From: Mumia xiangluensis | Lineage (GTDB): Bacteria > Actinomycetota > Actinomycetes > Propionibacteriales > Nocardioidaceae | Assembly: GCF_010994095.1 (NCBI RefSeq) | Contig: NZ_WJYO01000001.1 | Location: forward strand, 124,001 to 188,000 | Direction of reading: 5' to 3' | Length of the DNA stretch: 64,000 bases | Shown here: positions 7,702 to 58,801 of the stretch, piece by piece | How the letters are laid out: the number at the start of each line of letters is the position of its first letter | Position numbering within the stretch: position 1 is the first letter of the stretch | Made by a program: the position numbers and the translations under genes | The notes under the pieces: model-generated | The model's input: only the letters and a program-made list of their open reading frames with translations | The model's database searches: none | Told to the model about the DNA's origin: nothing

Positions 7702-7834
7702 GGTTTCGACTCGCTTCGCTCGCTCAACCAGCGGAGGGGGGAGGCAGCTCAACCAGCGGAGGAGCGAGGAGCTCAACCAGCGGAGGGGGGGTCGAGCTCA
7801 ACCAGCGGAGGCGGGTGGAGCTCAACCAGCGGAG
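7702..7834 (+). repeat. intergenic element with five tandem copies of its terminal motif
   Basis: A 33-base element (7702-7734; begins GGTTTCGACTCGCTTCGCTC and ends GCTCAACCAGCGG) is followed by four more copies of its last 13 bases. Copies of GCTCAACCAGCGG start at 7722, 7747, 7771, 7796 and 7820, a period of 24-25 bases with G/A-rich spacers. The same 33-base element, differing at one variable base, occurs at 45430 and 49475. The last copy provides the TetR stop codon on the minus strand. Confidence 0.85.
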
Positions 7835-9978: not shown

Positions 9979-10063
9979 GCGCGAGGAGCCGGAGCGGAGG
10001 TACGCCGAGGTACGAGGTGTGCCGGAGCGAGGCACCGCAGCGCTCAGGCACGTTGGGCGCGGC

Positions 10064-42278: not shown

Positions 42279-42284
42279 CACCGG

Positions 42285-43187
42285 ATGACGGCCGAACCCC
42301 AGGAGATGGCCGCCTCCCGCACGCCGGGGGCGGCCATCTCCGCGTTCCTCAGCCGCAGGCCCTGGGTGCGCCTCACGGCGCTCCTCTCCGTGCCGCTGCT
42401 GTGGCTCGTGCTCGTGTACGTCGTGGCGCTCGCCGCGCTGCTCGTCACGGCGCTGTGGACGACCGACAGCTTCACGGGCGAGATCGACAAGACCTGGTCC
42501 CTCGACAACATCGAGACGGTGCTGACGACGGCGCTCTACCGGACGGTGACCCTGCGAACGCTCGGCCTCGCGGTGCTGGTCACCCTCATCGACGTCACGA
42601 TCGCCCTGCCGATCGCGTTCTTCATGGCGAAGGTCGCCTCACGCCGTACGCAGCGGATCCTGGTCGTCGCCGTCCTCACGCCGCTGTGGGCGAGCTATCT
42701 CGTGAAGGCGTACGCGTGGCGGTCGGTGCTCTCAGGGGGCGGGTTGTTCGAGTGGCTCGGGCAGCCGTTCGACGTCCAGTCGCCCGGCTACGGGATGACG
42801 GCGCTGGTGATCACCGAGGCGTACCTGTGGCTGCCGTTCGTCATCCTGCCGATCTACGCCGGCTTCGACCGGGTGCCCGACTCGCTGCTCGAGGCGTCGG
42901 GCGACCTCGGCGGCTCCGGCCCGCAGACGCTGCGGTGGGTCGTGATGCCGATGATCGTTCCGGCCGTCGTGGCCGGGGCGATCTTCAGCTTCTCGCTGAC
43001 CCTCGGCGACTACATCGCGGTGAACATCGTCGGCGGGACCAACCAGCTGCTCGGCAACCTCGTCTACACGAACGTCGGCGCGGCCAACAACCTCCCGCTC
43101 GCCGCCGCGATCGCGCTGATCCCGATCGCGATCATGATCGTCTTCCTCACCGCCGTACGCCGTACCGGCGCCCTCGAGAACCTCTAA
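42285..43187 (+). CDS. potB: polyamine-type ABC transporter permease PotB-like
   Basis: The 300-residue permease has six helices and the EAA loop LEASGDLGGSGPQTLRWVVM (about 204-223). The first helix (about 33-58) is followed by a long periplasmic loop as in PotB. It follows the binding-protein stop by 6 bases. Confidence 0.9.
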   Translation: MTAEPQEMAASRTPGAAISAFLSRRPWVRLTALLSVPLLWLVLVYVVALAALLVTALWTTDSFTGEIDKTWSLDNIETVLTTALYRTVTLRTLGLAVLVTLIDVTIALPIAFFMAKVASRRTQRILVVAVLTPLWASYLVKAYAWRSVLSGGGLFEWLGQPFDVQSPGYGMTALVITEAYLWLPFVILPIYAGFDRVPDSLLEASGDLGGSGPQTLRWVVMPMIVPAVVAGAIFSFSLTLGDYIAVNIVGGTNQLLGNLVYTNVGAANNLPLAAAIALIPIAIMIVFLTAVRRTGALENL

Positions 43188-43196
43188 GGAGCCGCG

Positions 43197-43997
43197 ATGA
43201 TCCTCAGCCGCCGTGTCCGGTGGGCGCTCGGGGCGCTGACCGTGCTCGTGCTCGCGTTCCTCTACCTGCCGCTGCTCGTGGTGGTCGTGAACTCGTTCAA
43301 CGCGAACCAGGCCATGACCTGGCCGCCGTCGGGGTTCACCCTGGAGTGGTGGGAGCGTGCCGCGAACAGCGAGGGCGCGCGCGACGCGGTCTGGACGAGC
43401 GTGCAGATCGCCCTCGTCGCCACAGCGATCGCCCTTCTGCTCGGGACGATGCTGTCGCTGGCACTGCAGCGCTACCGCTTCTTCGGGCGGTCCACCGTCA
43501 ACCTGCTGGTGATCCTGCCGATCGCCCTGCCCGGCATCATCACCGGCATCGCGCTCAACAACGCGTTCACCGGCATCCTCGACCTGAGGCTCACGGTCGG
43601 CACCGTGATCATCGCCCACGCGACGTTCTGCATCGTCACCGTCTTCAACAACGTGCAGGCCCGGCTGCGTCGGGTCGGCGGGAGCCTCGAGGAGGCGTCG
43701 GCCGACCTCGGCGCCGGCATGTGGACGACGTTCCGGCTCGTCACGTTCCCGCAGCTGCGCTCGGCGCTGCTCGCGGGCGGGCTGCTCGCGTTCGCGCTGA
43801 GCTTCGACGAGATCATCGTGACCACGTTCACCGCCGGCGCAGGGGTCACGACGCTGCCGATCTGGATCTTCAACAACATGTTCCGGCCCAACCAGGCGCC
43901 GGTGGTCAACGTCGTCGCCGTCGTGCTGATCATCGTCTCGATCGTCCCGATCTGGCTCGCGCAACGGCTGTCGGGCGATGCCGAAGGCAGGCCGTAG
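43197..43997 (+). CDS. potC: polyamine-type ABC transporter permease PotC-like
   Basis: The 266-residue inner-membrane permease has the EAA loop LEEASADLGAGMWTTFRLVT (about 163-182) and the PotC-type FSFDEIIVTTF-like block (ALSFDEIIVTTFTAGAGV). It ends the operon; the start has AAGGAGCCGCG upstream. After it, 43998-44084 holds short repeated words (CGGTCGCC, GAGTACG) and no gene. Confidence 0.9.
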   Translation: MILSRRVRWALGALTVLVLAFLYLPLLVVVVNSFNANQAMTWPPSGFTLEWWERAANSEGARDAVWTSVQIALVATAIALLLGTMLSLALQRYRFFGRSTVNLLVILPIALPGIITGIALNNAFTGILDLRLTVGTVIIAHATFCIVTVFNNVQARLRRVGGSLEEASADLGAGMWTTFRLVTFPQLRSALLAGGLLAFALSFDEIIVTTFTAGAGVTTLPIWIFNNMFRPNQAPVVNVVAVVLIIVSIVPIWLAQRLSGDAEGRP

Positions 43998-44595: not shown

Positions 44596-45411
44596 TCAGG
44601 CGACCAGCGCCTCCAGCACCTCGGTGCACCCAGCGTCGAGCTTGAGCGCCGCCAGCTCGTCACCGCGGGTCGTCCCGCGGTTCACGATCACCACCGGCGT
44701 ACCCGCCTTCGCCGCCTGCCGGACGAACCGCAGCCCCGACATCACGTGCAGGGACGACCCGACCACGAGCAGCGCGTCAGCGGCATCGACGAGGCCGCGG
44801 CAGTGCTCGACCCGGGGCTTCGGCACGTTCTCGCCGAAGAACACGACGTCCGGCTTCAGGAGCCCGCCGCACTCCAGGCACGGCGCCACTCGGAAGTCGG
44901 CCGTCTCCTCGAGCACCGCGTCGCCGTCGGGTGCGATCGCGTACGCGCCCTCGCCGTAGCCGGGGTTCAGGACGTCCAGCCGTTCGTGCAGCGCCGCCCG
45001 CGGCGTACGCGCTCCGCACGCGAGGCAGACGACGTCGGCGATCCGGCCGTGGAGCGCGACGAGCTCCTGCTGCCCGGCTGCCTCGTGCAGGCCGTCGACG
45101 TTCTGCGTGATCACCGCCGACACAGCACCCGATCGCTCGAGCGCGACGAGCGCGTGGTGACCGGCGTTCGGCTCGGCGCCGGTCATGTGGCGCCACCCGA
45201 CGTGCGCCCGCGCCCAGTACCGCTGGCGCGCCTGCGGGGTCGCCACGAACTCCTGGTACGTCATGGGTGACCGCGGCACGGACTCGGGTCCGCGGTAGTC
45301 CGGGATGCCCGAGTCGGTGCTGATCCCGGCTCCGGTGAGCACGACGACGCGGCGGCCGGCCAGCAGCGTACGGGCGTCCGCGACGGTCGGCAGCTCGGTG
45401 ACGGTTTCCAC
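44596..45411 (-). CDS. NAD-dependent protein deacylase, Sir2 family
   Basis: The 271-residue sirtuin has GAGISTDSGIPDYRG (about 27-41), VITQNVDGLHEAAG with the NAD-binding Asn/Asp, catalytic His in LHGRI (about 119), zinc-type cysteines in VCLACGA and PCLECGG, and VVFFGENVP and VVGSSLHVMSG. It would remove acyl groups from lysines using NAD. The length and two CxxC pairs match class II/III bacterial sirtuins. The start is GTG. A repeat array and the phosphate-locus control region lie upstream. Confidence 0.93.
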   Translation of the reverse strand: METVTELPTVADARTLLAGRRVVVLTGAGISTDSGIPDYRGPESVPRSPMTYQEFVATPQARQRYWARAHVGWRHMTGAEPNAGHHALVALERSGAVSAVITQNVDGLHEAAGQQELVALHGRIADVVCLACGARTPRAALHERLDVLNPGYGEGAYAIAPDGDAVLEETADFRVAPCLECGGLLKPDVVFFGENVPKPRVEHCRGLVDAADALLVVGSSLHVMSGLRFVRQAAKAGTPVVIVNRGTTRGDELAALKLDAGCTEVLEALVA

Positions 45412-45429: not shown

Positions 45430-45512
45430 GGTTTCGACTCGCTGCGCTCGCTCAACCAGCGGGGAGGGCGCTGCGCTCGCTCAACCAGCGGGAAGGGCGC
45501 TCAACCAGCGGG
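45430..45512 (+). repeat. intergenic element with three copies of its terminal motif
   Basis: The 33-base element (45430-45462, same as at 7702 with one base different) is followed by two more copies of GCTCAACCAGCGG (starts 45450, 45479, 45499). It lies between the sirtuin start and the PHO-box-like site. Confidence 0.85.
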
Positions 45513-45530: not shown

Positions 45531-45552
45531 GTTCGCCCGGCGTTCACGCAAC
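45531..45552 (+). promoter_or_regulatory. PHO-box-like direct repeat upstream of pstC
   Basis: GTTCGCCCGGC and GTTCACGCAAC are adjacent 11-base units with the GTTCAC-type start of actinobacterial PhoP sites. It ends 69 bases before the pstC ATG. A looser pair, GTTGAGTTCGT and TGTTGACGTT, follows at 45579-45600. Confidence 0.6.
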
Positions 45553-45621
45553 CCACGCCCCGCGGTTGCGCAGGTCTCGTTGAGTTCGTCTGTTGACGTT
45601 CCCCGGCATCACGGAGCCCGC

Positions 45622-46641
45622 ATGACCCCGACCACCACGCTGCGCACGGAGCTGCCGTCGCTCGACGCCGACGAACCCCGCCAGCTGGCGGGACGCACGT
45701 CGGGCAGCGACCTCGTCTTCCGCATCGTCGCCCGGTCGTTCGGCGGGATGGTCCTGCTGATCACCGGAGGGATCGGGTTCTTCCTCGCGCTCCAGGCCGT
45801 GCCGACCCTGCAGCGCTACGGGACGTCGTTCTTCACCGAGACGCAGTGGCAGCCCGAGGCGGACGTCCTCGGCATCGGCGCAGTCCTGGTCGGCACGGTC
45901 TCGGTCGCCGGTGTCGCGCTGGTCATCGCTTTCCCGCTGGCCCTGCTGACCGCGCTCTACATCAGCGAGTACGCGCCCCCGCGCCTGCGCCCGACGCTCG
46001 TCTCGTGCGTGGACCTGATGGCGGCCGTGCCGAGCATCATCTACGGGCTGTGGGGGTTCTTCCTGCTGCAGCCGCACGCGAGCGCCGTCGCGCACTGGCT
46101 CCACCAGCACCTCGGCTTCATCCCGTTCTTCGCCGTCGACGCCGACGCCGACGCTGCGGTCTGGGAGCAGACGCGCTACACGGCGTCCGCGTTCGTGGCC
46201 GGCATCGCCGTCGCGATGATGGTGCTCCCGATGACCTGCGCCGTGATGCGGCAGGTGTTCTCGCAGGCACCGGCCGGCGAACGGGAGGCGGCGCTCGCGC
46301 TCGGCAGCACCCGCTGGGGGATGATCCGCAGCGTCGTCCTGCCGTACGGTCGCGGCGGCATCATCGGTGGCACGATGCTCGGCCTGGGCCGCGCTCTCGG
46401 TGAGACCATCGCCGTCCTGCTGATCATCTCGCCCGCCTTCGACCTGAAACCGCGTGTCCTCGAGATCGGCACCAACACGGTGTCGGCGCTCATCGCCGGG
46501 CGCTTCGGCGAGGCGAGCGAGGCCCAGCTCTCCGCCCTTCTGACCGCCGGGTTCGTGCTGTTCGTCATCACGCTCGTCGTCAACACCTTCGCCGCGATGA
46601 TCGTCTCGCGCAGTCGCTCAGGGATCGGGACGGACGCCTGA
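45622..46641 (+). CDS. pstC: phosphate ABC transporter permease PstC
   Basis: The 339-residue permease has six main helices and the PstC-type EAA block EREAALALGSTRWGMIRSVV (about 220-239), followed by GRGGIIGGTMLGLGRALGET. The ATG at 45622 has GGAG 9 bases upstream; an upstream in-frame start would fall on the promoter. The stop overlaps the pstA start (TGATG). With pstA, pstB and two PstS proteins in the locus this is a high-affinity phosphate importer. Confidence 0.94.
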   Translation: MTPTTTLRTELPSLDADEPRQLAGRTSGSDLVFRIVARSFGGMVLLITGGIGFFLALQAVPTLQRYGTSFFTETQWQPEADVLGIGAVLVGTVSVAGVALVIAFPLALLTALYISEYAPPRLRPTLVSCVDLMAAVPSIIYGLWGFFLLQPHASAVAHWLHQHLGFIPFFAVDADADAAVWEQTRYTASAFVAGIAVAMMVLPMTCAVMRQVFSQAPAGEREAALALGSTRWGMIRSVVLPYGRGGIIGGTMLGLGRALGETIAVLLIISPAFDLKPRVLEIGTNTVSALIAGRFGEASEAQLSALLTAGFVLFVITLVVNTFAAMIVSRSRSGIGTDA

Positions 46642-47804
46642 TGTCGACGCTCACGACACCGCCGCCCGGTGGCACCCACCGCAGCGAGACGTCGACCGCC
46701 GAGGACGCACCCCGTACGTTCCTGCGCGCCGAGCTGCCCCAGGCCCACCGCGACGCCGTGCCGGAGGAGCGCCGCCTGCTGACCTCGATCCGTCCGGACG
46801 ACCGGCTCGCGATCGCCGGCAGCTGGATCGCCGCCGCGTGCCTGGCGTGGGTCATCTGCCGTCGCCTGATGCCGTGGGACGGTGTCCTGCCGTTCGTCGT
46901 GGTGATGCTCGTCTGCGCCCTGATCCTCATCGCGCTCACGACCGCCCTCACCGGCACGCGCGCGGAGGTCGGCGACCGTGTCGCGTCCGCGCTCGTGCAC
47001 GCGGGCGCCCTCACGGTCGGCATCGCGCTCGTGAGCACGATCGTGTTCGTCTTCGCCCGTGGCGCCGAGGCGCTGCCGCACCTCAACCTCTTCACCGAGG
47101 ACATGTCCGGTGTCGGGCCGCGCGACCCGTTCACGCGGGGCGGCGTCCTGCACGCGATCCTCGGCACGCTGATCCAGGTCGCGATCGCCGTCGTCATCAC
47201 CGTGCCGCTCGGGATCGGCGCTGCGGTCTTCATGACCGAGGTGGGCGGCCCCTTCGCACGGGTGGTGCGTACGGTCGTCGAGGCGATGACCGCGCTGCCG
47301 TCGATCGTCGCGGGCCTGTTCATCTACACGACGCTGATCGTCACCCTCGGGGTGGCACGGTCGGGCATCGCGGCCGCGCTCGCCCTGTCGGTGATGATGC
47401 TGCCGATCATCGCGCGGGCGGCCGACGTGGTGCTCCGGATCGTCCCGGGCGGACTGCGCGAGGCGAGTCTCGCGCTCGGCTCCTCACGGTGGCGCACGGT
47501 GTGGCACGTCGTGCTGCCGACCGCTCGTCCCGGTCTCGCGACCGCGCTGATCCTCGGTGTCGCCCGCGGCATCGGCGAGACGTCCCCGGTCCTGCTCACG
47601 TCCGGCGCGGCGTCGTTCGTCGTGGTCGACCCGACCGACGGCGTCATGAACTCGCTGCCGCTGTTCATCTTCTCCACCGTCCGCAGCGGCGAGCCGATCT
47701 ACATCCAGCGTGCGTTCGCCGCGGCCGCCGTCCTGATGGCGCTCGTCCTGATCCTGTTCGTCGTCGCGCGACTCCTGGCGCGCCCCAGAAAGGGAACCCG
47801 ATGA
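46641..47804 (+). CDS. pstA: phosphate ABC transporter permease PstA
   Basis: The 387-residue permease has an extra N-terminal segment (about 1-50 polar, then two helices about 57-96) before the usual six-helix PstA core. The EAA block is LREASLALGSSRWRTVWHVV (about 272-291), followed by PGLATALILGVARGIGET. The start codon shares a base with the pstC stop, and its stop overlaps the next start as ATGA, so pstC, pstA and the next genes are translated in series. Confidence 0.94.
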   Translation: MSTLTTPPPGGTHRSETSTAEDAPRTFLRAELPQAHRDAVPEERRLLTSIRPDDRLAIAGSWIAAACLAWVICRRLMPWDGVLPFVVVMLVCALILIALTTALTGTRAEVGDRVASALVHAGALTVGIALVSTIVFVFARGAEALPHLNLFTEDMSGVGPRDPFTRGGVLHAILGTLIQVAIAVVITVPLGIGAAVFMTEVGGPFARVVRTVVEAMTALPSIVAGLFIYTTLIVTLGVARSGIAAALALSVMMLPIIARAADVVLRIVPGGLREASLALGSSRWRTVWHVVLPTARPGLATALILGVARGIGETSPVLLTSGAASFVVVDPTDGVMNSLPLFIFSTVRSGEPIYIQRAFAAAAVLMALVLILFVVARLLARPRKGTR

Positions 47805-49411
47805 CCCCCGCCCTCCGCCGGCTCCACCTCCGTACGTGGGTGGTGGTGCTCGCCGCGCTCCTGACGGCGTTCACGCTCGTCCTCCGTACGGCCTCGCCCG
47901 CCCAGGCGGCGTACGCCCAGATCGAAGGCTCGGGGTCGACCTGGAGCGAGCTGATCGTGCGGCAGTGGATCGCCGACGTCGACGCCATGGGCATGAAGGT
48001 GACCTACAGCAGCGGCGGCTCGTCGCAGGGCCGCAAGAACTTCGCGCAGAACGTCACCGACTTCGGCATCAGCGAGATCCCGTACCAGGGTGTCGACGAG
48101 TACGGCGCCGCCGACACCGCGGGCAAGCGCGCGTTCGCGTACCTGCCGATCGTCGCCGGCGGCACTGCCTTCACCTACCAGGTGAGGGTCGGCGGCAAGC
48201 TGGTGAAGAACCTGCGCCTCTCCGGCGACACGATCGCCAAGATCTTCACCAACAAGATCACCGACTGGTCCGACGCAGCGATCACGAAGGACAACAACGG
48301 CCGCAAGCTCCCCTCGTTGCGGATCATCCCGGTGGTGCGCTCCGACGGCTCGGGCACGACGGCCCAGTTCACGACGTGGCTGGACAAGGAGCACCCGAAG
48401 GTGTGGCGCCCGTTCTTCGGCCGGTCGGGCCTGACCTCGTACTTCCCGCGCAAGGGCACCGCGATCGCGGCGTCCGGGTCGGACCAGGTGATGAACACGA
48501 TCTCCGGCGACGCGGGCAACGGCACGATCGGGTACGTCGAGTACTCGTACCCCGTGAGCAAGAAGTTCCCGGTGGTCAAGGTGCTCAACAAGGCCGGCTA
48601 CTTCGTGGAGCCGACCGAGCACAACGTCGCCGTTGCGTTGACGAAGGCGCGGATCAACGAGAACAAGAGCTCGCCGCTCTACCTGACGCAGATCCTCGAC
48701 GGCGTCTACCGAGCGACCGACAAGCGGGCGTACCCGCTGTCGTCGTACTCCTACATGCTCTTGCCGACCGGGGCGAAGGACCAGCGCATGACCACGGCGA
48801 AACGGCAGACCCTGGTCGACTTCATGTTCTACTCGCTGTGCGAAGGGCAGAGCAAGGCAGGCCCGTACGGCTACTCGCCGCTCCCGCTGAACCTCGTCCA
48901 GGCCGGGTTCGCCCAGCTGGCGAAGCTGGGCACCGCCGACAAGGGCGTCAACGTGAAGAACCGCGACGCACGCCGCTGCAACAACCCGACGTTCGTCAAG
49001 GGCGACCTCTCGCGCAACCACCTCGCCGAGATCGCGCCGCAGCCCGCCGCCTGCGACAAGGTGGGCGCCGGACCGTGCGGCACCGCGCCGGCGGCGGACA
49101 CCGGGGCGACCGACAAGCCGAAGGCCGGCGCGCAGCCGACGGCCGCCGCCGCGCCGGGCGCTGCCGCTCCGTCCGCGGGGGCGGCGCCGCAGGTCGCTGC
49201 GAGCACCGACCCCGAGACCGGACAACCCGTGGCGGCGGCTGCGGTCGTCGACCCGGAGTCGATCGCCGGTGTTCCGACCGAGCTGACGTCGAGCGCCCTG
49301 GGCGACCGCAAGGAGTGGTTCGGCGCGATCGCGATGCTCGAGCTGCTGCTCATCGTCACCGTCCCGGGCGCGCTGGCGCTCTACTTCCGCCGGCGGGGGG
49401 CAGCACGATGA
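47801..49411 (+). CDS. membrane-anchored PstS-like phosphate-binding protein
   Basis: The 536-residue protein has a signal peptide (about 1-36, ending PAQA), a PstS-type domain with GSGSTWSELIVRQWI and the phosphate loop SDGSGT (181-186), then a Pro/Ala/Lys-rich spacer (about 430-480) and a C-terminal helix (about 507-528, IAMLELLLIVTVPGALALYF) with RRRGAAR facing the cytoplasm. It is not a lipoprotein, since no lipobox Cys follows the signal helix. It is therefore a wall-spanning binding protein held by its C-terminus. It is coupled to pstA and the next gene by ATGA overlaps. Confidence 0.88.
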   Translation: MTPALRRLHLRTWVVVLAALLTAFTLVLRTASPAQAAYAQIEGSGSTWSELIVRQWIADVDAMGMKVTYSSGGSSQGRKNFAQNVTDFGISEIPYQGVDEYGAADTAGKRAFAYLPIVAGGTAFTYQVRVGGKLVKNLRLSGDTIAKIFTNKITDWSDAAITKDNNGRKLPSLRIIPVVRSDGSGTTAQFTTWLDKEHPKVWRPFFGRSGLTSYFPRKGTAIAASGSDQVMNTISGDAGNGTIGYVEYSYPVSKKFPVVKVLNKAGYFVEPTEHNVAVALTKARINENKSSPLYLTQILDGVYRATDKRAYPLSSYSYMLLPTGAKDQRMTTAKRQTLVDFMFYSLCEGQSKAGPYGYSPLPLNLVQAGFAQLAKLGTADKGVNVKNRDARRCNNPTFVKGDLSRNHLAEIAPQPAACDKVGAGPCGTAPAADTGATDKPKAGAQPTAAAAPGAAAPSAGAAPQVAASTDPETGQPVAAAAVVDPESIAGVPTELTSSALGDRKEWFGAIAMLELLLIVTVPGALALYFRRRGAAR

Positions 49412-52077
49412 GGCGGCGACTCGTACGGGGCGGCCTGGCGCTGCTGGTCGTGGCGACGGCGGTGGTGGGGCCGGGGTTTCGACTCGCTCCGCTCGCTCAA
49501 CCAGCGGGGGCCGCTCCGGCTCAACCAGCGGAGGCCGCTCTCGCTCAACCAGCGGGGGCCGCTCTCGCTCAACCAGCGGGGGCCGCTCTCGCTCGGGCCG
49601 CTGCTGCGTCGTCCGCGTACGGCGCGTCCAAGACGCTGACCCGCGCGCACGTCGCCGCCGACGGCACGACCGAGGTCGTCGACGAGCGCAAGGTGACCGT
49701 GCGGGTCGACCAGACCACCGGGCTGCAGGGTCGGCAGCGGCTCCGTGTCAGCTGGACGGGCGCACACCCGAGCGCGGCACGCGCGGCGAACCCCTACGGC
49801 GAGGGCGGGATGGCGCAGGAGTATCCCGTCGTCATCCTCCAGTGCCGCGGCGTGGACTCGGCCAGCGTGCCCGCGTCCCAGCGGCTCTCGCCGGAGACGT
49901 GCTGGACCTCGACCCGTCAGCAGCGGTCCCAGATGGTGACGGAGCGAGCCGCGATCTGGCGCAAGGACCGCGCCGCGTCGACCGGCGAGCGCGAGCAGAA
50001 GACCGGCATCTCCCCGTGGCCGAGCGCGAAGGTCTGCCCGGACGTCGACTTCATGTCGACGCACCTGACCCCGTTCGTCGCCCGCTCGGGCAAGGTCTTC
50101 CCTGCGTGCTCGTCCGAGACGATGCCGCCCGAGGCCGCCACCGGCGCGTCGTTCCCGCCGGCCGAGATCGCAGCGTTCACCGACCTCGAGGGCAAGGGCG
50201 AGGTGCAGTACGAGGTCCGCAGCGCCGTCGAGAACGAGTCGCTCGGCTGCTCGCGCTCGGTGCGCTGCTCGATCGTCGTCATCCCGATCATGGGGATCAG
50301 CTGCGGCAGGGACGCGGCCACGCCGGCTGACGAGGAGTGCCGCAAGCCCGGTCAGTGGACCGCAGGCTCGAGCAACTCGGCGAGTCTCGGCGTCGACGCC
50401 GCCGTCTCCCCGTCGTACTGGTGGTCGGAGTCGAACTGGAAGGGCCGCTTCAGCGTGCCGTTGTCGTTCGGCCTCCCGCCGGACGCGTGCAACGTCCTCG
50501 ACAGCCGGGCGCCGGTCGCGTTCTACGGCTCCGAGCTGCTCAGCCAGGCGGCGCTCCAGTGGGCGCCCGCGTACTGCCTGCGCAAGGACCGGTTCAAGTT
50601 CCAGCACAACCGGATGGCCGACGACGTCGCCTTCACCCTGATGCAGGGCGGTGGCGCCGCAGCGGCATTCGTCTCGCGCGGCCACGCGGACGAAGGGGCG
50701 ACACCGGTCGGGTACGCGCCGGTCGCCGTGACCGGGTTCGCGGTCTCGTACGTCGTGGACAAGCCCGGCAACACAGGCGAGGCACTGCGGCTCCGGTTGA
50801 ACGCCCGCCTGCTCGCGAAGCTGCTCACGCAGAGCTATCCCGCCTCGTACTCCGGACGTCAGCGCCCGGGCCTCGAGAAGAACCCGCTCTCGCTCAACAC
50901 CGATCCCGAGTTCATCGCCCTCAATCCGGGACTCGACAAGCAGGCCCGCGAGGCGACGGCGACCGTCCTGTCGCTGTCGGAGTCGTCGGACGTGATCCGG
51001 ACGCTCACCGCCTACATCGCGGCGGACCGCGACGCCGCCGCCTTCGTGAAGGGCAAGGCGGACCGGTGGGGCATGAAGGTCAACCCGGCGTACAGGGCGA
51101 TCGGCCTGCCGCGCGCCGAGTGGCCGTTGAAGGACACGTTCGTCCCGAGGTCCGAGCTGGAGTGCCGCAAGGAGAACCCCGCCCCGTACCTCAGCCAGGT
51201 CGCCGCACCCGTCAGCAGCCTGCGCAAGATCGCCGAGGCGGTCCTCGACGCGTGGCCGAACGTCCAGACGCGGTGCGAGCGCGCGACGATGTCGGACCCG
51301 TGGAAGCTCGGCCGCATCGAGCGCCAGGGCGTCGGCAACCGCTTCATGATCGGCATCGTCACGCTCGGCGACGCCGAGCGCTTCGGCCTGCGCACCGCCG
51401 AGCTCCAGACGCAGCGCGCGTCGGGAGGTCGTCCCGCCAGGTTCGTCGCGCCGACCAGCACGGCGCTGAAGGCCGCCGTCCGCGAGGCGGACGGCGGCAC
51501 GCTCGGCAAGGCGTTCACGCTGGACCCGACGACGCTGCGCGCTGAGGCGCCACGCGCGTACCCGGGCACGATGATCGTCTACGCCGCCGCGCGCCTGGAG
51601 GGGCTCGCGAAGAAGCAGGCCGGCGACGTCGCGCAGTTCATCGAGGTGGCGACGCGACGAGGCCAGCGCGTCGGCACCGGCAACGGCGACCTGCCTCCGG
51701 GCTACCTGCCGATCACCAGGACCGGAGCCACGGCAGACCTGTACGCCTCCGCGCAGGAGGCGGCGGACGCGATCCGCGCGCAGAAGGGTCTGCCGGGCTC
51801 CGCTGACGAGGGTGACGACAAGTCCGACACGCCTGCGGCGGACTCCCCTGCACCCTCCGCTCCGGCAGCGCCGCTCGCGGTGCCCACGGCAGCCGCCACT
51901 CCGCCGACCAAGAGCAGCGCCGTCGCCACGACGCGTGCCGTGACGACTGCCCCGACCGGGGACACTCCAGCCCCGCTCGCCGGAATCGCGCTGCCGCTCC
52001 TGCTGGGGCTGGCCATGGTGCTCGGCGTGGCCGCGCCCGCCGCGAAGCAGCTCGTCCAGCGGAGGTCGCGCCGATGA
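49408..52077 (+). CDS. large exported PstS-related protein with C-terminal membrane anchor
   Basis: The 889-residue protein has a signal helix (about 8-22), an Ala/Pro/Gln-rich repeat region (about 23-64) coded by the repeat element, and a long extracellular part. Segments such as RMADDVAFTLMQGGGAAAAF, VGYAPVAVTGFAVSYVVDKP, LLAKLLTQSYPASYSG and NRFMIGIVTLGDAERFGLRT recall the two-lobed phosphate-binding fold, but the SGSGT phosphate loop is not seen. About ten cysteines suggest disulfides. A low-complexity stalk (about 800-850) leads to a last helix (LAGIALPLLLGLAMVLGVAA) and RRSRR. Role in phosphate capture is inferred from coupling (ATGA overlaps both sides). Confidence 0.75.
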   Translation: MRRRLVRGGLALLVVATAVVGPGFRLAPLAQPAGAAPAQPAEAALAQPAGAALAQPAGAALARAAAASSAYGASKTLTRAHVAADGTTEVVDERKVTVRVDQTTGLQGRQRLRVSWTGAHPSAARAANPYGEGGMAQEYPVVILQCRGVDSASVPASQRLSPETCWTSTRQQRSQMVTERAAIWRKDRAASTGEREQKTGISPWPSAKVCPDVDFMSTHLTPFVARSGKVFPACSSETMPPEAATGASFPPAEIAAFTDLEGKGEVQYEVRSAVENESLGCSRSVRCSIVVIPIMGISCGRDAATPADEECRKPGQWTAGSSNSASLGVDAAVSPSYWWSESNWKGRFSVPLSFGLPPDACNVLDSRAPVAFYGSELLSQAALQWAPAYCLRKDRFKFQHNRMADDVAFTLMQGGGAAAAFVSRGHADEGATPVGYAPVAVTGFAVSYVVDKPGNTGEALRLRLNARLLAKLLTQSYPASYSGRQRPGLEKNPLSLNTDPEFIALNPGLDKQAREATATVLSLSESSDVIRTLTAYIAADRDAAAFVKGKADRWGMKVNPAYRAIGLPRAEWPLKDTFVPRSELECRKENPAPYLSQVAAPVSSLRKIAEAVLDAWPNVQTRCERATMSDPWKLGRIERQGVGNRFMIGIVTLGDAERFGLRTAELQTQRASGGRPARFVAPTSTALKAAVREADGGTLGKAFTLDPTTLRAEAPRAYPGTMIVYAAARLEGLAKKQAGDVAQFIEVATRRGQRVGTGNGDLPPGYLPITRTGATADLYASAQEAADAIRAQKGLPGSADEGDDKSDTPAADSPAPSAPAAPLAVPTAAATPPTKSSAVATTRAVTTAPTGDTPAPLAGIALPLLLGLAMVLGVAAPAAKQLVQRRSRR
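49475..49600 (+). repeat. repeat element and 24-base tandem array inside a coding sequence
   Basis: The 33-base element (49475-49507) and copies of GCTCAACCAGCGG at 49495, 49519, 49543 and 49567 have a period of exactly 24 bases, which keeps the frame and encodes the 8-residue unit ALAQPAGA. The same element at 7702 and 45430 is intergenic with uneven periods. Confidence 0.88.
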
Positions 52078-53063
52078 CGACAGCCCTCGGCCCGTCCGCC
52101 CAGACCACCGAACGGGCTCCCGCGCCGGCGCCTCCGGCGCCCGCGCCCGAAGGCCCGGACGAGATGCTGCCCGAGTCCACCCCCGAGCCCGCGCCGTCCG
52201 GTTCCCACCCCGGCGCACCGCGCCCGGACCGGTCGTCGTTCGTGGTCCTCGACGCACTGACCGTGCTCGCCCTGGTCTGCGCGTGGACCGTGCTCCAGGT
52301 GCTCGTGCTGTCCGGGATCTCCCAGCAGCGGAGCCAGGACCTCCTGTACGGCGCCTTCCGGACCGAGCTCGCCTCCGCGACGGCGCCGGTCGGCGGCGTG
52401 ATCCCCGTCGGTGCCCCGGTCGCCCTGCTCGAGGCGCCGTCGATCGACCTCGAGCAGGTGGTCGTCGAGGGCACCAGCGGCCGTACGCTCCTCGCCGGGC
52501 CCGGGCACCGTCGCGACACGCCGCTGCCGGGTCAGGCCGGCACGTCGCTGGTCTACGGACGAGCACAGACGTACGGCGGTCCGTTCGGGCAGATCAGCTC
52601 GCTCGCACCCGGCGACACCGTAGCGACGACCACCGGCCAGGGGCGCGCGACGTACGTCGTCGAGAAGGTGCGCCGCGCCGGCGATCCTCTGCCGCAGCCG
52701 TTGGCCGCCGAGCAGGGGCGCCTGACGCTCACCAGTGCCGAAGAGTCCGGTGGCCGGCTGGGAGCGCTGCGGCCGCAGGGCACGCTCTACGTCGACCTGC
52801 GACTGACCTCGAAGCCCTTCCCGACCCCGGCCGGTCGCCCGGCGGCCGTCACCGACGCTGAGCGCGCGATGGGTACGTCGACCGACGACATCGCAGCGCT
52901 CGCGTTCGCCCTCCAAGGGATCCTGCTCGTCGTCGTGGCCGTGGTCCTCGCACGACGCCGCCTCCCCGGTGCCGTCGTCTGGGTCATCGCGGCGCCCGTG
53001 ACCATCGCGCTGGCGTGGTGGTGCACGGACCTGGCGATGCCGATGCTGCCGAACCTGATGTGA
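52074..53063 (+). CDS. sortase-fold protein lacking catalytic His and Cys
   Basis: The 329-residue protein has a Pro-rich cytoplasmic N-terminus, a helix (about 59-82), a sortase-like extracellular domain and two C-terminal helices (about 280-298 and 303-320). The sortase pattern is clear: APSIDLEQVVVEGTSG, LPGQAGTSLV, FGQISSLAPGDTV and ATYVVEKVRRAG. Where active sortases have the His of AGH, this has YGR (Arg 163), and where they have TLxTC this has TLTSA (Ala 222); the Arg (about 228) remains. So it is probably a non-catalytic scaffold or assembly factor. It is coupled to the preceding gene by ATGA. Confidence 0.78.
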   Translation: MTTALGPSAQTTERAPAPAPPAPAPEGPDEMLPESTPEPAPSGSHPGAPRPDRSSFVVLDALTVLALVCAWTVLQVLVLSGISQQRSQDLLYGAFRTELASATAPVGGVIPVGAPVALLEAPSIDLEQVVVEGTSGRTLLAGPGHRRDTPLPGQAGTSLVYGRAQTYGGPFGQISSLAPGDTVATTTGQGRATYVVEKVRRAGDPLPQPLAAEQGRLTLTSAEESGGRLGALRPQGTLYVDLRLTSKPFPTPAGRPAAVTDAERAMGTSTDDIAALAFALQGILLVVVAVVLARRRLPGAVVWVIAAPVTIALAWWCTDLAMPMLPNLM

Positions 53064-53112
53064 GAGCGGTCCGCGGTGACCCGCTGACGCACTCCCCGCG
53101 CGGACGCGAACC

Positions 53113-53134
53113 GGTCACCGAGTGTTCACCGCAC
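53113..53134 (+). promoter_or_regulatory. PHO-box-like direct repeat upstream of pstS
   Basis: GGTCACCGAGT and GTTCACCGCAC are adjacent 11-base units of the GTTCACC type recognised by PhoP in actinobacteria. It lies 83 bases before the pstS ATG in a 154-base gap. Confidence 0.65.
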
Positions 53135-53172
53135 GCCAGTCCTGTGTCCAGCCTGCGCCCCCACGATCGAGT

Positions 53173-53191
53173 CGGAGTCGCGTCGACTCCG
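53173..53191 (+). promoter_or_regulatory. 8-base stem hairpin in the pstS leader
   Basis: CGGAGTCG (53173-53180) and CGACTCCG (53184-53191) are perfect arms with a 3-base loop, 26 bases before the ATG. It may be an operator or stabilise the mRNA. Confidence 0.35.
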
Positions 53192-53217
53192 TCGCACACA
53201 GAATGAGGTCATCTCCC

Positions 53218-54816
53218 ATGTCACCAAGGCCCCTGACCGCCGTCGGCGTCGCCGCGCTCAGCGCTGCCCTCGTCCTCGGCACTCCGCTCGCCGCCTCCGC
53301 GGACCCGACCAGCACCCCCGCTGCCACCGACATCGTCGGTGTCGGCTCGGACACCACCCAGTTCGTCCTCGGCTACCTCGCGAACGGCACCACCGTCAAC
53401 GGCACCGTGCTGAAGGGCTACAACGAGGGCCGCGCCACGGGGAAGCTCGCGAGCTTCGACGCGATCAAGGCCGACGGCACGACCGGCGATCCGATCGTGC
53501 TGAAGACCGGCGCCGCCTCGATCGCGCGCCCGAACGGCTCGAGTGCCGGCAAGGGCCTCCTGTACGGCGCGAGCCCCAACGCGAACGTGAACTACGCCCG
53601 TTCGTCGAGCTCGCTCAGCGACCCCGAGAAGGCCGCCAACCTCTACCAGATCCCGTTCGCGATCGACGGCATCAAGCTCGCCGTCCGCAAGGCCGGCAGC
53701 AACGCACCGGCGGCCATCTCGGGCGCGGACGTCGTGAAGATCTACAACGGCACCTACACGAACTGGAACCAGCTGGGCGGCGCCGCAGGCGTCATCAAGC
53801 CGCTGATCCCGCAGAGCGGCTCGGGCACCCGCTCGGTCTTCGAGGGCCAGCTCAAGGCGCTCAACGGCGGCGTGGCCGTCGTTCTCGCGCCGGGTGTCGC
53901 CGAGACCCAGGAGCACAGCGACGCGGACGTCAAGAACGACGCGAACGCGATCGTGCCGTTCTCGACCGGCCGCGCCAAGGTCACGCCGACGATCACTCTC
54001 TCCGGCGGCTGGTCGTTCACGCGTGCGCTCTACAACGTCGTGCGCGTGACCGACCTCGGTTCGCCGTGGGCGGCCGGAATCTTCCTCGAGAACGGCTTCG
54101 CCTGCAGCGCAGCCGCGAAGCCCCTGATCGAGGCCGCCGGCTTCGAGCAGCTCGCCACGCCCGCCAAGGGCGGCGTCTGCGGCGAGCCCACCCAGGACGC
54201 GACGTCGAACTTCACGACGTCGGCGGACACGCCCGCCAAGGTCGCGTCGACGACCTCGGTCGCCGTCCCCGGCGCCGCGTCGTACGGCAAGACCCGGACG
54301 GTCGTCGCGACGGTGCGTCGCGGCGGCGCTGCAGCGACGGGCTCGGTCGTCGTGAAGGTCGGCTCGCGTCCTGCGCAGACCGTCGCCCTTTCCGGAGGCC
54401 GCGCCTCGGTCACCCTGCCTGCCTCGCTCGGCGCAGGCGCGTACGCGGTCACGGCGTCCTTCGGCGGGAACGCCACCACGGCGGCCTCGAAGACGCAGGG
54501 CGTCCTGCGGGTCACGAAGGCGTCCTCGAAGGTCGGCTTCACGATCTCGCCGAAGAAGCTCACCGCGAAGAAGCGCGCCAAGGCGGCCGTCAAGGTGAGC
54601 CTGCCCGGCCTGCCGGCATCGATCCGCCCGTCGGGTCGCGTCCTCGTCCTCGACGGCAAGAAGGTCGTCGGCCGCGGCACCGTCTCGGCCAAGGGCACGG
54701 TGACCGTCAAGCTCGCGAAGCTCAAGAAGGGCAAGCACAAGCTCAAGGTGACCTACGCCGGCAACGGCAACGTCTTCGCCTCGACGTCGAAGGTGATCAA
54801 GGTCCGCGTCCGCTGA
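53218..54816 (+). CDS. pstS: secreted PstS phosphate-binding protein with Ig-like C-terminal domains
   Basis: The 532-residue protein has a signal peptide (about 1-28, ending ASA) and a PstS domain (about 35-345) with [12 protein letters not shown] and the phosphate loop SGSGT (about 201-205). Two Ig-like beta repeats follow (about 365-450 and 455-532; [40 protein letters not shown]) that are Lys-rich. There is no lipobox or C-terminal helix, so retention may rely on the Ig-like repeats or wall binding. The ATG follows GAGG by 10 bases and a PHO-box-like site lies upstream. Confidence 0.9.
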
Positions 54817-54847
54817 CGTAGACCGCCCACCGCACTCACCCGCTCGC

Positions 54848-54881
54848 GCCGGGGTCGACCTCGTTCGAGGGCGGCCCCGGC
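54848..54881 (+). terminator. attenuator-like hairpin between pstS and pstB
   Basis: GCCGGGG (54848-54854) pairs with CCCCGGC (54875-54881), with an inner CCTCG/CGAGG stem. It lies 31 bases after the pstS stop and before the GAAGGAAG ribosome site of pstB, so it could reduce read-through and keep binding protein in excess. Confidence 0.5.
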
Positions 54882-54907
54882 CGAGCCGTACACGAAGGAA
54901 GCACACC

Positions 54908-55747
54908 GTGGCGATCGACCAGACGCTCCAGATCCCCGGGTTCCCGCCCGCACCCTCGTCCCGCTCGCTCGCGCTCGCCGAGCTGGCGGCGTACGACGTG
55001 TCGGCGTGGTTCGGCACCCACAAGGTGCTCGACCGGGTCAGCCTGACCATGCCCGCGGGCGAGATCACCGCGCTGATCGGCCCGTCCGGCTGCGGCAAGT
55101 CGACGTTCCTGCGGATCCTGAACCGCATGCACGAGCTCGTGCCCAGCGCGTCCATGGCCGGCGAGGTGCAGCTCGACGGCGAGGACGTCTACGCGCCGAC
55201 CCGCAAGCTCACCGACGCGCGCAAGGCGATCGGCATGGTGTTCCAGAAGCCGAACCCGTTCCCGGCGATGTCGATCGAGCAGAACGTGCTGGCCGGCCTC
55301 AAGCTGACCGGCACGCGCGCCAGCAAGGACACCCGCGAGGAGCTCGTCCAGTCGTGCCTCACGAAGGCAGGCCTGTGGAAGGAGGTCAAGGACCGTCTCT
55401 CCGCGCCGGGTGGCGGCCTGTCCGGCGGACAGCAGCAGCGCCTCTGCATCGCCCGGTCGCTCGCGGTGCGTCCGCGGGTCCTCCTGATGGACGAACCGTG
55501 CTCCGCACTGGACCCGACGTCGACACGAGTGATCGAGGAGACGATGCTAGAGCTGGCAGAGGAGGTCACCATCGTCATCGTCACGCACAACATGCAGCAG
55601 GCTGCTCGTGTCTCGAGCCGCTGTGCGTTCTTCCTCGCTGCCCAGGGCACACCGGGTGTGATCATCGAGCACGGCGACACCCCCGCGATGTTCGGCGCGC
55701 CGCAGGACCGCCGTACGGCCGACTACGTGAGCGGCCGCTTCGGGTGA
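54908..55747 (+). CDS. pstB: phosphate ABC transporter ATPase PstB
   Basis: The 279-residue ATPase has Walker [10 protein letters not shown] (58-66), Q-loop [13 protein letters not shown], signature LSGGQQQR, Walker [14 protein letters not shown] and H-loop [12 protein letters not shown]. These are the diagnostic PstB blocks (KPNPFP, NMQQA). The GTG start has GAAGGAAG upstream. It energises PstC-PstA and follows pstS; its stop overlaps the next start as GTGA. Confidence 0.95.
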
Positions 55748-56529
55748 GTGGAGGCCTCGTGCGCGGACCTGTCCTGGTCGCCCTGGTGGGGGCTGCCGGG
55801 GTGTTCGCCGCGACCGCGGCGCTGCTCTCAACCTCGGGCAGCGGCGAGGCGAGCGTCGGCGAGCTCGCCCTGGTCGATCCTGCCGCGATCGCGCCCGCCG
55901 CGGCGCCGACCGCGGTCGCCGCGGCCGAGGTTCCCGGTGGCGTGACCGCCTCGCTCGACCGGCCCGAAGCCGCCGCGGTGTGGGTCGAGAGCACCGCCGC
56001 TCGGGTCGGCATCGGCCAGGTCGCGGTCGCCGCGTACGCGAACGCCTCCCTGCGCATCGGCGTCGAGCAGCCCGGCTGCAACCTCGAGTGGACGACGCTC
56101 GCCGGCATCGGCTGGGTGGAGTCCCAGCACGGCACGCTGGGCGGCAACGAGGTCCTGCACGACGGCACGACCCGGGAGCCGATCCTCGGCCCCGCCCTCG
56201 ACGGCTCGGAGGGCGTCGGCGCGATCCGACCCGGCGCCGACGACACCGCCGCGCACGGCAACACCGACTGGGACCACGCCGTCGGCCCGATGCAGTTCAT
56301 CGGCAGCACGTGGAGCCGATGGGGATCCGACGGCGACGGCGACGGCGTCGCGGACCGCGGTGACATCGACGACGCTGCCTACTCAGCCGGCCGCTACCTG
56401 TGCGGCGACGGGTACGACCTCGCGACCGGCACCGGATGGACGGCCGCGATCTTCGCCTACAACCACTCCGACGCCTACGTCACGTCGGTGCTCGCCGCCG
56501 CGAACACGTACGCCGAGAGCTCGGGCTGA
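55744..56529 (+). CDS. lytic transglycosylase-like protein
   Basis: The 261-residue exported protein has a signal helix (about 8-30) and a lysozyme-like domain: [18 protein letters not shown] (catalytic Glu about 128), [20 protein letters not shown] and [20 protein letters not shown]. This matches the SLT/RpfB-like membrane-bound transglycosylase family B, which cuts peptidoglycan. It overlaps pstB (GTGA), so wall remodelling is tied to phosphate starvation. The GTG at 55744 is chosen for the overlap; a GTG at 55759 with GGAGG upstream is possible. Confidence 0.85.
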
Positions 56530-56542: not shown

Positions 56543-56590
56543 GGGTAGTTCGGAGTACGGGTCGTTCGGCGTACCGGTCCTCCGGCGTCA
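56534..56590. repeat. 16-base tandem repeat between convergent genes
   Basis: Three copies of a 16-base unit of the form TCGG(C/A)GTACSGGTMGT start at 56534, 56550 and 56566, and a partial fourth runs into the end of the MMPL gene. The first copy shares the hairpin's right arm. Confidence 0.6.
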
Positions 56591-58801
56591 GGCCCTGACC
56601 GGCTCCGGCGCCTTCTCGGTGCGCTCACCGAGGCGCTTGGCCAGCTGGTCGCCCTCGATGTCGAGGTTCGGGATCAGCCGGTCCAGCCATGCAGGCAGCC
56701 ACCACGCGGACTTGCCGGCGATCGCCATGAAGGCCGGGATCAGCGTCATCCGGACCAGGAACGCGTCGGCGAGGATGCCGAACGCGAGCCCGAACCCGAT
56801 GGGCTTGATCATCGCCATCGGGCTGATGATGAAGCTGCCGAACACCGAGATCATGATGATCGCCGCGGCGGTGACCACGCGGGCGCTGTGGCTGAAGCCG
56901 GTCACGACCGACGTCTGGGCGTCGCCGGTGTGGACGTAGTCCTCGCGCATCCGCGAGACCAGGAACACCTGGTAGTCCATCGCCAGTCCGAACAGGATGC
57001 CCACCATGAGGAGCGGCAGGATGCTGATGATCGGCCCCGGGGTGTCGACCCCGAACAGGCCGGACAGCCAGCCCCATTGGAAGACGGCGACGGTCGCACC
57101 GAGCGCGATCCCGACGGTCAGCAGGAACCCGACCACCGCGGACAGCGGGACCAGGATCGAGCGGAACACCAGGATGAGCAGGATGAACGCGAGGCCGACG
57201 ACGAGCGCCAGATAGACCGGGAGCGCGTCGGCGAGCTTCTCCGACACGTCCACCGAGACCGCCGTCTGACCGCTGACCAGCACGTCAGCACCGGTGTCGG
57301 CGTTGACTCCGCTGACGGCGTCCCGGATCTCGTGGACGAGGTCCTGCGTCGCCGCCTCCGCGGGGCCGCTGGTGGGGATCACGGTGATCGTCGCCAGGTC
57401 GGCGTTCGGGATGACCTGAGCCGGGACCACGGCTCCGACCTTGGTGTCGATGCCTTCGATCGCTGCGGTAGCAGCCGCGACCGCAGCGTCGGGGTCCGCC
57501 GCGTCCTTCGTGTCCACGACGACGAGCAGCGGCCCGTTGGCGCCGGCGCCGAAGCTCTCGGAGATCATGTCGTACGCCTTGCGCTGCGTCGTGTCGACCG
57601 CGGCCGTGCCGTCGTCGGGCAGCGACTCCTGAAGAGACAGGACCGGGATCGAGGCGACTGCCGCGACGAGCACGCCGACGACGGCGACGACGCCCTTGCG
57701 CCGCGAGACCAGGCCCGCCCAGCGCTGACCCATGGTGGGCTTGCCCGAGTGGTCGTCGGCCTCGGGGTCGTGCTGGCGCAGGCCGGGGATCTTGCCCTTG
57801 GTGATGCGCCGCTTGGCGAAGCCGAACAGCGCCGGCAGGAGCGTGAGGGCGATCAGCACGGAGATCGCCACGGTGGCGGCTGCGGCCAGACCCATCTCGG
57901 TGAGGATCGAGATGTTCACGACGGAGAGCCCGGCCAGCGCGATGACCACGGTGAGACCGGCGAAGACCACGGCACTGCCGGCGGTGCCGACGGCGCGACC
58001 GGCAGCCTCCTCGGGCTCGCGGCCGGCGATCACCTCGCTGCGGTAGCGGGACACGATGAACAGGGCGTAGTCGATACCGACGGCGAGGCCGAGCATCGTC
58101 GCGAGGATCGGCGTCGTCGATCCCAGCGACATGAACCCGGTGAGCGCGGTGATGCCCGAGATCCCGATGCCGACGCCGATCAGGGCCGTCAGCAGCGGCA
58201 TGCCGGCCGCGATCAGCGACCCGAAGGTGATGAGGAGGACCACCATGGCGACGACGATGCCGATGAGCTCCGACGAGCCGGTCTCCGGCATCTCCTGGAG
58301 CGCGTCACCGCCGACCTCGACGGTCATCCCCGCTTCGCGCCCGGCGTCCGGAGCCTCTTCGAGCGCGTCGACCTGGGCCTCGGAGAGGTCGATCGACTGC
58401 GTGTCGTAGCTGATGGTCGTGTAGGCGACCGTCTCGTCCGGCGACACCTGCTGGGCCTGGAACGGGTCGACGGCGCTGATGACGCCGTCCTCGCCGCCCA
58501 GGTCGGTCACGGTCTGCGTGACGACGGAGGCGAACTCCGGGTCCGTGATCTTGGAGCCCTCGGGAGCCTGGAAGACGATGCGGGCTGTCGCCCCGTCCGC
58601 CGCGGCGTCGGGGTTGCGCTCCTTCATGAGGTCGAACGCCTCGACGGACTCGAGTCCGGGCATGGAGAAGTTGTCCGAGGTCTTTCCGGACAGCGTCGCC
58701 GCGCCGGTGCCGGCGAGCACGAGCGCGAGCAGCCACGCGACGAGGACGCCCTTGCGGTGGCGGAACGACCACCGTCCGAGGCGGTAGAGGTACCAGGACA
58801 C
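56588..58801 (-). CDS. MMPL-family RND transporter
   Basis: The 737-residue membrane protein has twelve predicted helices and two extracytoplasmic loops typical of MMPL proteins. Motifs are NFSMPGLESVEAFDLMKERN near the start, ILATMLGLAVGIDYALFIVS (GxxxDY, about 237-256) and its repeat GILFGLAMDYQVFLVSRMRE, with the proton-relay Asp-Tyr pairs. It moves lipids, drugs or siderophore-like compounds. It lies 42 bases after a TetR gene in the same transcript, so expression is probably induced by the cargo. Confidence 0.93.
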   Translation of the reverse strand: MSWYLYRLGRWSFRHRKGVLVAWLLALVLAGTGAATLSGKTSDNFSMPGLESVEAFDLMKERNPDAAADGATARIVFQAPEGSKITDPEFASVVTQTVTDLGGEDGVISAVDPFQAQQVSPDETVAYTTISYDTQSIDLSEAQVDALEEAPDAGREAGMTVEVGGDALQEMPETGSSELIGIVVAMVVLLITFGSLIAAGMPLLTALIGVGIGISGITALTGFMSLGSTTPILATMLGLAVGIDYALFIVSRYRSEVIAGREPEEAAGRAVGTAGSAVVFAGLTVVIALAGLSVVNISILTEMGLAAAATVAISVLIALTLLPALFGFAKRRITKGKIPGLRQHDPEADDHSGKPTMGQRWAGLVSRRKGVVAVVGVLVAAVASIPVLSLQESLPDDGTAAVDTTQRKAYDMISESFGAGANGPLLVVVDTKDAADPDAAVAAATAAIEGIDTKVGAVVPAQVIPNADLATITVIPTSGPAEAATQDLVHEIRDAVSGVNADTGADVLVSGQTAVSVDVSEKLADALPVYLALVVGLAFILLILVFRSILVPLSAVVGFLLTVGIALGATVAVFQWGWLSGLFGVDTPGPIISILPLLMVGILFGLAMDYQVFLVSRMREDYVHTGDAQTSVVTGFSHSARVVTAAAIIMISVFGSFIISPMAMIKPIGFGLAFGILADAFLVRMTLIPAFMAIAGKSAWWLPAWLDRLIPNLDIEGDQLAKRLGERTEKAPEPVRA

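Follow-up and report, generated by a model that had tools for sequence, protein, structure and literature searches.

A sortase-like gene that lacks the catalytic residues of its family is embedded in a phosphate-transport (pst) locus of Mumia xiangluensis, and its product, here named SrtL, most likely plays, judging from sequence comparison, a non-catalytic part in a Pst-type importer, as scaffold or ligand site. The locus spans positions 45622-56529 of the window, that is, of the whole stretch of 64,000 nucleotides analysed (G000:C1:124001-188000 of the 4.6-Mb genome). More specifically, we give a probability of roughly 0.45 to the reading that it encodes a variant Pst importer built of tethered surface proteins, with SrtL as its non-catalytic scaffold. 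The open reading frames (ORFs) of the locus, in window coordinates, are as follows.

45622..46641, + strand: pstC, phosphate permease subunit (TIGR02138, 257.5 bits, cut-off 196.45)
46641..47804, + strand: pstA, phosphate permease subunit (TIGR00974, 217.6 bits, cut-off 193.45)
47801..49411, + strand: S1, PstS-like binding protein with a signal peptide, a P-T-x-L stalk, a C-terminal transmembrane (TM) stretch and an RRR tail
49408..52077, + strand: L889, exported PstS-related protein of 889 residues with a C-terminal TM stretch
52074..53063, + strand: srtL, sortase-fold pseudoenzyme by profile, with R163 and A222 at catalytic positions
53203..54816, + strand: S2, secreted PstS-like protein with immunoglobulin (Ig)-like (Big_3_5) repeats; the start could be 53218
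54908..55747, + strand: pstB, ATPase (TIGR00972, 330.7 bits, just below the cut-off of 343.2)
55744..56529, + strand: lytic transglycosylase-like gene (SLT_2, 27.4 bits, cut-off 24.3)

These ORFs agree with the order proposed in the initial annotation, in which pstC, pstA, S1, L889 and srtL are joined by overlaps and S2, pstB and the transglycosylase come next; pstC and pstA share 1 base, and S1, L889 and srtL each start in a 4-base ATGA overlap. In related loci, the transglycosylase-like gene closes the locus often, not always. The membrane anchoring proposed for the binding proteins is likewise borne out by hydropathy: both S1 and L889 start with a signal-like stretch and carry, towards the C-terminus, a single hydrophobic stretch whose end is rich in Arg. 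S2 has an N-terminal hydrophobic stretch only, and SrtL has one near its N-terminus plus a long C-terminal one, together with a predicted extracytoplasmic domain.

The likeness of SrtL to sortases is seen in sequence profiles. Pfam PF04203 matches residues 119-201 (E 3e-13, 50.1 bits, cut-off 26.6); the best NCBIfam match is the class E family NF033747, at 55.3 bits and far below its cut-off of 160; and a profile of 61 SrtL relatives has class E-type sortases as its best PDB matches (5go6, E 5e-19). By these measures SrtL is a predicted class-E-like sortase-fold protein, in keeping with the earlier view of it as a sortase-fold pseudoenzyme. Since the Pfam sortase model matches srtL-type proteins, annotation by Pfam would presumably count them as wall-anchoring enzymes.

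When SrtL is aligned with three true sortases of the same genome (L113-L115), it reads GR163, SA222 and TL (Thr237) where these read GH, TC and R(L/S). Arg163 thus stands for the catalytic His and Ala222 for the catalytic Cys, the two replacements claimed at the outset, and Thr237 stands for the catalytic Arg; L116, a more distant sortase of this genome, also has His and TC. The stretch between beta6 and beta7 measures 20 residues in SrtL, against 29, 41 and 33 in L113-L115, and contains R-x-x-G-D-P-x-P. Furthermore, the C-terminal hydrophobic region of SrtL, which ends in LPN, is missing from the aligned own-genome sortases.

The residues were then counted over 109 SrtL rows from Actinomycetota, from which the duplicates L047 and L074 had been dropped and in which near-identical pairs such as L058/L062 and L067/L068 were kept. 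The His column holds Arg in 103 rows and Lys in 5, the single gap being that of L169, whose contig is truncated. Cys is never found in its column, which is occupied by Ala (77), Ser (21), Gly (7), Thr (3) or Val (1), and the catalytic Arg of beta8 persists in 1/109 rows, as compared with 13/13 resolved control sortases. His and Cys are kept by all 17 controls, 16 of them by alignment; the other, L172, is misaligned, and direct reading gives AGHR and TTC. In turn, R200 (103/109), G203 (98), D204 (94), P207 (95) and D241 (100) are conserved among the SrtL rows. These column counts indicate that the catalytic loss is general, that His always gives way to a positive residue and that new positions are constrained. 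The initial annotation had named the same five-gene order with the same two substitutions in relatives as a point to check: gene set and positions recur in many Actinomycetota, whereas the residues vary (Arg or Lys at the first position; Ala, Ser, Gly, Thr or Val at the second), and the His/Cys pair is intact in no orthologue examined. Arg163, together with the conserved R200, G203, D204, P207 and D241, would point to selection for a new role.

Such constraint is hard to reconcile with the idea that srtL was once a housekeeping sortase gene and now decays as a passenger of the operon. The loss of all three catalytic residues is what decay would leave. However, neutral change at 163, 200 and 204 would then be expected, and it is not seen: a positive residue always replaces His, and the new residues are fixed. 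Families within the class and beyond it keep the reading frame open and conserved, in strict linkage, and three small genomes retain it (G296, G323 and G420; 1.4-1.7 Mb, 93-100% completeness). Moreover, sortases that do have His and Cys are encoded elsewhere in the Mumia genome (L113-L116). Given this conservation and linkage, a vestigial gene is very unlikely.

The same residues could serve a receptor, in which the former active site (Arg163, perhaps with Arg200 and Asp204) would bind an anion (phosphate, one of its esters or a phosphopolymer of the wall) and report it or pass it to PstCA. Residue 163 is positive in 108/108 rows that cover it, Arg200 is nearly as constant, and the residue at the Cys position is always small, as expected of an open pocket. 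However, the arginine could equally form a structural salt bridge, and the shared 163/200 pocket has no reliable model: the AlphaFold prediction, which used eight sequences only, has a mean predicted local distance difference test (pLDDT) score of 57.8 and falls below 50 over residues 127-170, the region of Arg163. This weak model divides the C-terminal hydrophobic region into two TM helices. We consider a receptor rather unlikely, and among the rivals the anion site formed by R163 and R200 has the best claim. A different chemistry, independent of His and Cys, would also draw on the strongly conserved R200, G203, D204 and D241, but the old site offers no conserved nucleophile (A/S/G/T/V), and no enzyme of this fold is known to us to act without Cys; such a chemistry seems to us quite improbable.

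The distribution of srtL is wide and patchy. The search of the order (293 genomes) found the family in 63 genomes and 73 loci (E<1e-34; next match 1e-14), that of the class (197 genomes) in 24 genomes outside the order, from 12 families (E<1e-19; next 2.7e-16), and that of the phylum (198 genomes) in 4 genomes outside the class, from 3 families (E<1e-27). No srtL-family match was obtained in three other genomes of the window's own genus (G085, G088 and G277).

Wherever it occurs, the gene keeps constant company. In the 105 loci of order and class, profiles place L889 near srtL in 96, S2 in 97 and S1 in 90, together with pstB in 94, pstA in 78 and pstC in 72; in the nine loci without L889, srtL lies at most 3.7 kb from a contig end, or the contig measures about 3.5 kb. 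The four loci outside the class have L889 in 3/4, and S1 and pst genes in 4/4 (on the opposite strand in L186). Altogether, another module gene stands beside srtL in 107/109 loci, the exceptions, L149 and L169, ending at contig edges. Around control sortases, module genes were found in 0/5 loci of the class search, and 3/9 loci of the phylum search gave weak pstB (ATP-binding cassette, ABC) matches only, of 34-63 bits. Four of these 14 (L174, L190, L191 and L195) are partial controls, their contigs ending some 4 kb away or less. Within the Mumia genome, ABC matches around the sortase loci were limited to two weak ones, of 72 and 74 bits, at L113, with none at L114 and L115. A search with an L889 fragment in 147 genomes matched 33, all of which (33/33) carry srtL; they coincide with the srtL genomes numbered up to G146, and it is likely that none of the srtL genomes among the 147 lacks L889.

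Furthermore, the distances of SrtL, L889 and S1 correlate over 68 loci (r 0.92-0.95), and 0/300 permutations of a Mantel test reached as high a value for each of the SrtL/L889/S1 pairs. This correlation supports co-inheritance, not contact, because shared vertical descent alone also produces it. A chance neighbourhood is rejected by the Mantel test and by the control sortase loci without the module, and a gene set that recurs in more than 100 loci is more than chance. The order of the genes is itself variable, with at least six arrangements, in which X denotes up to three genes:

C-A-S1-L889-srtL-S2-B
C-A-S1-srtL-X-S2-L889-B
S1-L889-S2-X-srtL-B
X-L889-C-A-S1-srtL-B
X-S2-L889-srtL-B-C-A-S1
B-C-A-S1-L889-srtL-S2

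These rearrangements bear on another explanation, namely that SrtL is an assembly or quality-control factor which inserts or spaces the C-terminally anchored proteins and stays outside the working importer. In most loci of the order, srtL immediately follows the genes of the anchored proteins, which is consistent with this explanation, as is the presence, in some loci, of other surface-protein genes such as those for Ig-repeat proteins and for relatives of WxL-interacting proteins (WxLIP). Against it, srtL adjoins pstB and not the anchored proteins in many, not all, rearranged loci, and an assembly factor need not follow one importer so strictly; we judge it unlikely. Relatives of the WxLIP-type proteins of L093 and L096 occur in 23/121 sequences searched, and all 23 are srtL loci, among them L147, L160 and L184; PF06030 is confirmed in L093 and L096, where the gene, accompanied by one for a secreted Ig-repeat protein, separates S2 from srtL. 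A WxLIP-like gene was not found in the window locus, and the 23 related loci favour a surface assembly, such as the phosphate-capturing complex across the wall suggested in the initial annotation would be.

The module is not the only phosphate locus of this genome. A canonical pstS-C-A-B set (L123), whose pstS matches PF12849 with 154.9 bits, has Pit- and ppk-like genes among its neighbours (these and the pstSCAB identities being read from translations); since it is already there, the srtL module comes in addition to it. A second copy of the module is found at L044 (G000:C2:836000-855000), with an srtL about 42% identical; it has no good PHO box and carries extra genes before pstB, coding for a protein of 228 residues and an Ig-repeat protein of 405 residues.

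As to the origin of the dead form, in the unmasked tree a branch sets the 46 pseudo rows used apart (support 92/89; present in 88% of the 200 bootstrap trees). Masking the active-site columns gives a best tree with two changes, and one change suffices in only 48% of the bootstrap trees, so that a single origin is not established, and catalysis may have been lost separately, for example in the deep locus L187. That locus, outside the class, holds the deepest pst-linked form (srtL 8817-10157), with His replaced by Arg and Cys by Ser; its srtL visibly keeps an ERLVV segment, resembling that of the catalytic Arg, and it looks like an intermediate.

The PstS relationship attributed to the partners of SrtL was recovered by profile matches for S1, S2 and L889. 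S1 scores 192.4 bits with TIGR00975, just below the cut-off of 205, and matches PstS in the PDB with E 7.3e-34. It keeps the phosphate loop R180-x-D182-x-S184-G185-T186 (RSDGSGT) and an S-T-W segment, with Glu92 in place of the key Asp of PstS (E in 56 and D in 10 of 66 resolved rows). According to the available part of a review (PMC7866108), the pocket aspartate matters in telling phosphate from arsenate. The hydrophobic stretch of S1 covers residues 506-530, and the P-T-x-L of the stalk stands just before this anchor (P in 45, T in 46 and L in 61 of 69); close to it A490, R499 and G501 are also fairly conserved, and the linker further up is not.

Some loci of family f2 (L093, L094 and L099) have F-T-L-P-D-x-G at the stalk position, and a full LPDTG appears once, in L093. 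The stalk motif therefore looks like a candidate sorting signal that lost its function along with the enzyme, and a pseudo-sortase still holding this stalk would be the simplest reading of the two together. An active sortase with L889 and S1 as substrates is rejected: no orthologue examined has His and Cys, and LPxTG or LAxTG within the C-terminal 90 residues is limited to 1/69 S1, 0/74 L889 and 0/67 S2. Active orthologues that target LPxTG-type proteins, which by the initial annotation would have spoken against its view, did not turn up among those examined.

L889 is a more remote relative. Neither Pfam nor NCBIfam gives a significant match to its sequence, nor does a single-sequence search of the PDB, and its profile matches PstS over residues ~366-772 (hhalign against S1: probability 97.5, E 5e-12), the closest solved relative being PstS1 of the PDB (E 6.5e-10). 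The phosphate loop is gone, RSDGSGT being aligned with SLSESSDV; D528 (72/74 rows) and a Cys are conserved. S2 is similar to two phosphate-binding proteins, 1twy and 4q8r, has retained a GSGTR loop and gives no usable profile match to L889. The locus thus appears to couple a probable binder (S1), a loop-less PstS-like protein (L889), a secreted PstS-like protein (S2) and a putative dead sortase.

Two direct repeats resembling the PHO box accompany the locus, the first of them at the very position (45531) where the initial annotation begins its finding:

45531..45548, + strand: upstream of pstC, GTTCGCCCGGCGTTCACG, 2 mismatches, 12/14 consensus bases
53113..53130, + strand: upstream of S2, GGTCACCGAGTGTTCACC, 1 mismatch, 13/14 consensus bases

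Because the whole window has 7 such matches against 4.4 expected, their support comes from conservation upstream of pstC, where 39/57 loci have at least 11/14 consensus bases (mean 10.7, against 8.7 when shuffled). The repeat before S2 may be local, since only 7/66 loci reach 11/14 there; as it overlaps GTG 53122, that codon is an unlikely start of S2, and an in-frame ATG, at 53203 or 53218, is the better candidate. In Microlunatus phosphovorus, PolR is reported to have been footprinted on a very similar repeat, GTTCACnnnnnGTTCaC (PMC6754071). The repeats suggest that the locus is probably induced by phosphate starvation.

Taken together, the importer with SrtL as scaffold would work as follows. 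A set of tethered surface proteins would stand in for the free or lipid-anchored PstS: S1 as the phosphate-binding subunit, held next to PstCA by its C-terminal helix, and L889 as a large PstS-derived protein no longer binding phosphate in the usual way. SrtL would be a class-E-type sortase after the loss of catalysis. Its TM helices would lie alongside PstCA, and the groove that once took the substrate would have been remodelled, with the fixed Arg163 and the R-x-x-G-D-P-x-P segment. This groove would hold the C-terminal stalks of S1, L889 or both, whose tails resemble sorting signals (in S1, P-T-x-L, the TM stretch and the Arg-rich end), and the binding proteins would thereby be positioned at the permease beneath the thick wall. 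We infer phosphate as the substrate, the formation of the complex, the docking in the groove and the scaffold role.

Several points weigh against this proposal. The SrtL model is weak, so the remodelling of the groove is read from the alignment, and that of L889 is uninformative (mean pLDDT 40.0), its PstS likeness being one of profiles. The ligand may not be plain phosphate, because S1 has Glu for the key Asp in most rows, and the stalk motif could serve anchoring instead of docking. No L889 is detectable in L187, which branches off deepest. Finally, 18/57 loci have no good PHO box: a divergent subgroup (L044, the genome's second copy, L086, L088, L089, L092, L098, L103 and L106) and others, e.g., L001, L048, L051, L060, L083-L085 and L091; a few boxes may have been missed where the start was wrongly guessed.

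In a broader form, the conversion of a sortase fold into a permanent ABC-importer subunit would go back to early Actinomycetota; the former active site would now bind an anion or dock a peptide, and the subunit would organise a tethered assembly of PstS and pseudo-PstS proteins for phosphate, or for a phosphorylated wall or polymer ligand, beside PstSCAB; we advance this tentatively, as possible at somewhat less than even odds. Such a Pst-type importer would apparently have put both a former sortase, once catalytic, and a former PstS, once a binder, to other use. A wall-stapling enzyme shape with a replaced active site in a nutrient pump suggests a structural or sensing part, and a conserved gene set beside the canonical pst genes, with PHO-like repeats, suggests that the known phosphate uptake of these bacteria is incomplete.

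Pseudoenzymes are well studied for kinases and proteases. If our proposal is true, SrtL would, as far as is known, define the first family of pseudo-sortases and be the first transporter component with a sortase fold. Among the matches listed from the open literature, to which the survey was confined, the available parts of the sources, PMC9723661 among them, mention no natural pseudo-sortase, no sortase-fold transporter part and no link between sortases and phosphate.

Other features of the window deserve mention. The repeat core GCTCAACCAGCGG(G/A) occurs 12 times, against 0.07 expected, at 45450-45512 (intergenic, before pstC), 7722-7833 and 49495-49580. At the last of these sites, the 24-bp units add Ala/Pro/Gln-rich repeats behind the L889 signal peptide:

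49495..49580, + strand: four 24-bp repeat copies in the 5' coding part of L889 (residues ~30-58)

Around the locus, ORF translations suggest a substrate-binding protein of polyamine-transporter type with two permeases upstream (41091-43997), a divergent upstream ORF resembling Sir2-type deacetylases (44596-45411, - strand) and, after the locus on the opposite strand, an ORF resembling MMPL/RND-type transporters (56588-58801, - strand).

The system can finally be set beside those already known. The WxL/WxLIP surface loci of Gram-positive bacteria find a parallel in the WxLIP-type relatives of the 23 srtL loci; the window locus differs by having none found, and to our knowledge no Pst importer forms part of known WxL loci. 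Among solved structures, M. tuberculosis PstS1 (1pc3, 7dm1) comes closest to the L889 profile; L889 itself is about 2.5 times longer, TM-anchored, endowed with a conserved Cys and devoid of the RSDGSGT loop. With class E sortases (5go5/5go6, SrtE1 5cuw, NF033747), SrtL shares the fold motifs G-x-GH...LPGQ.G...YG.PF..L..GD and the N-terminal TM stretch. It departs from them in the replaced active-site His, Cys and Arg, in a beta6-beta7 stretch 9-21 residues shorter than in L113-L115 and bearing R-x-x-GDPxP, in its extra C-terminal hydrophobic region and in its place in pst loci. Lastly, canonical PstSCAB (L123) shares the PstC, PstA and PstB families, a PstS with phosphate loop and, possibly, the PHO-box-like control suggested for the window locus, whereas S1 has a C-terminal TM anchor in place of the lipobox-like LSAC of the L123 PstS, and the window locus has Glu for the key Asp and adds L889, SrtL and an Ig-repeat PstS.

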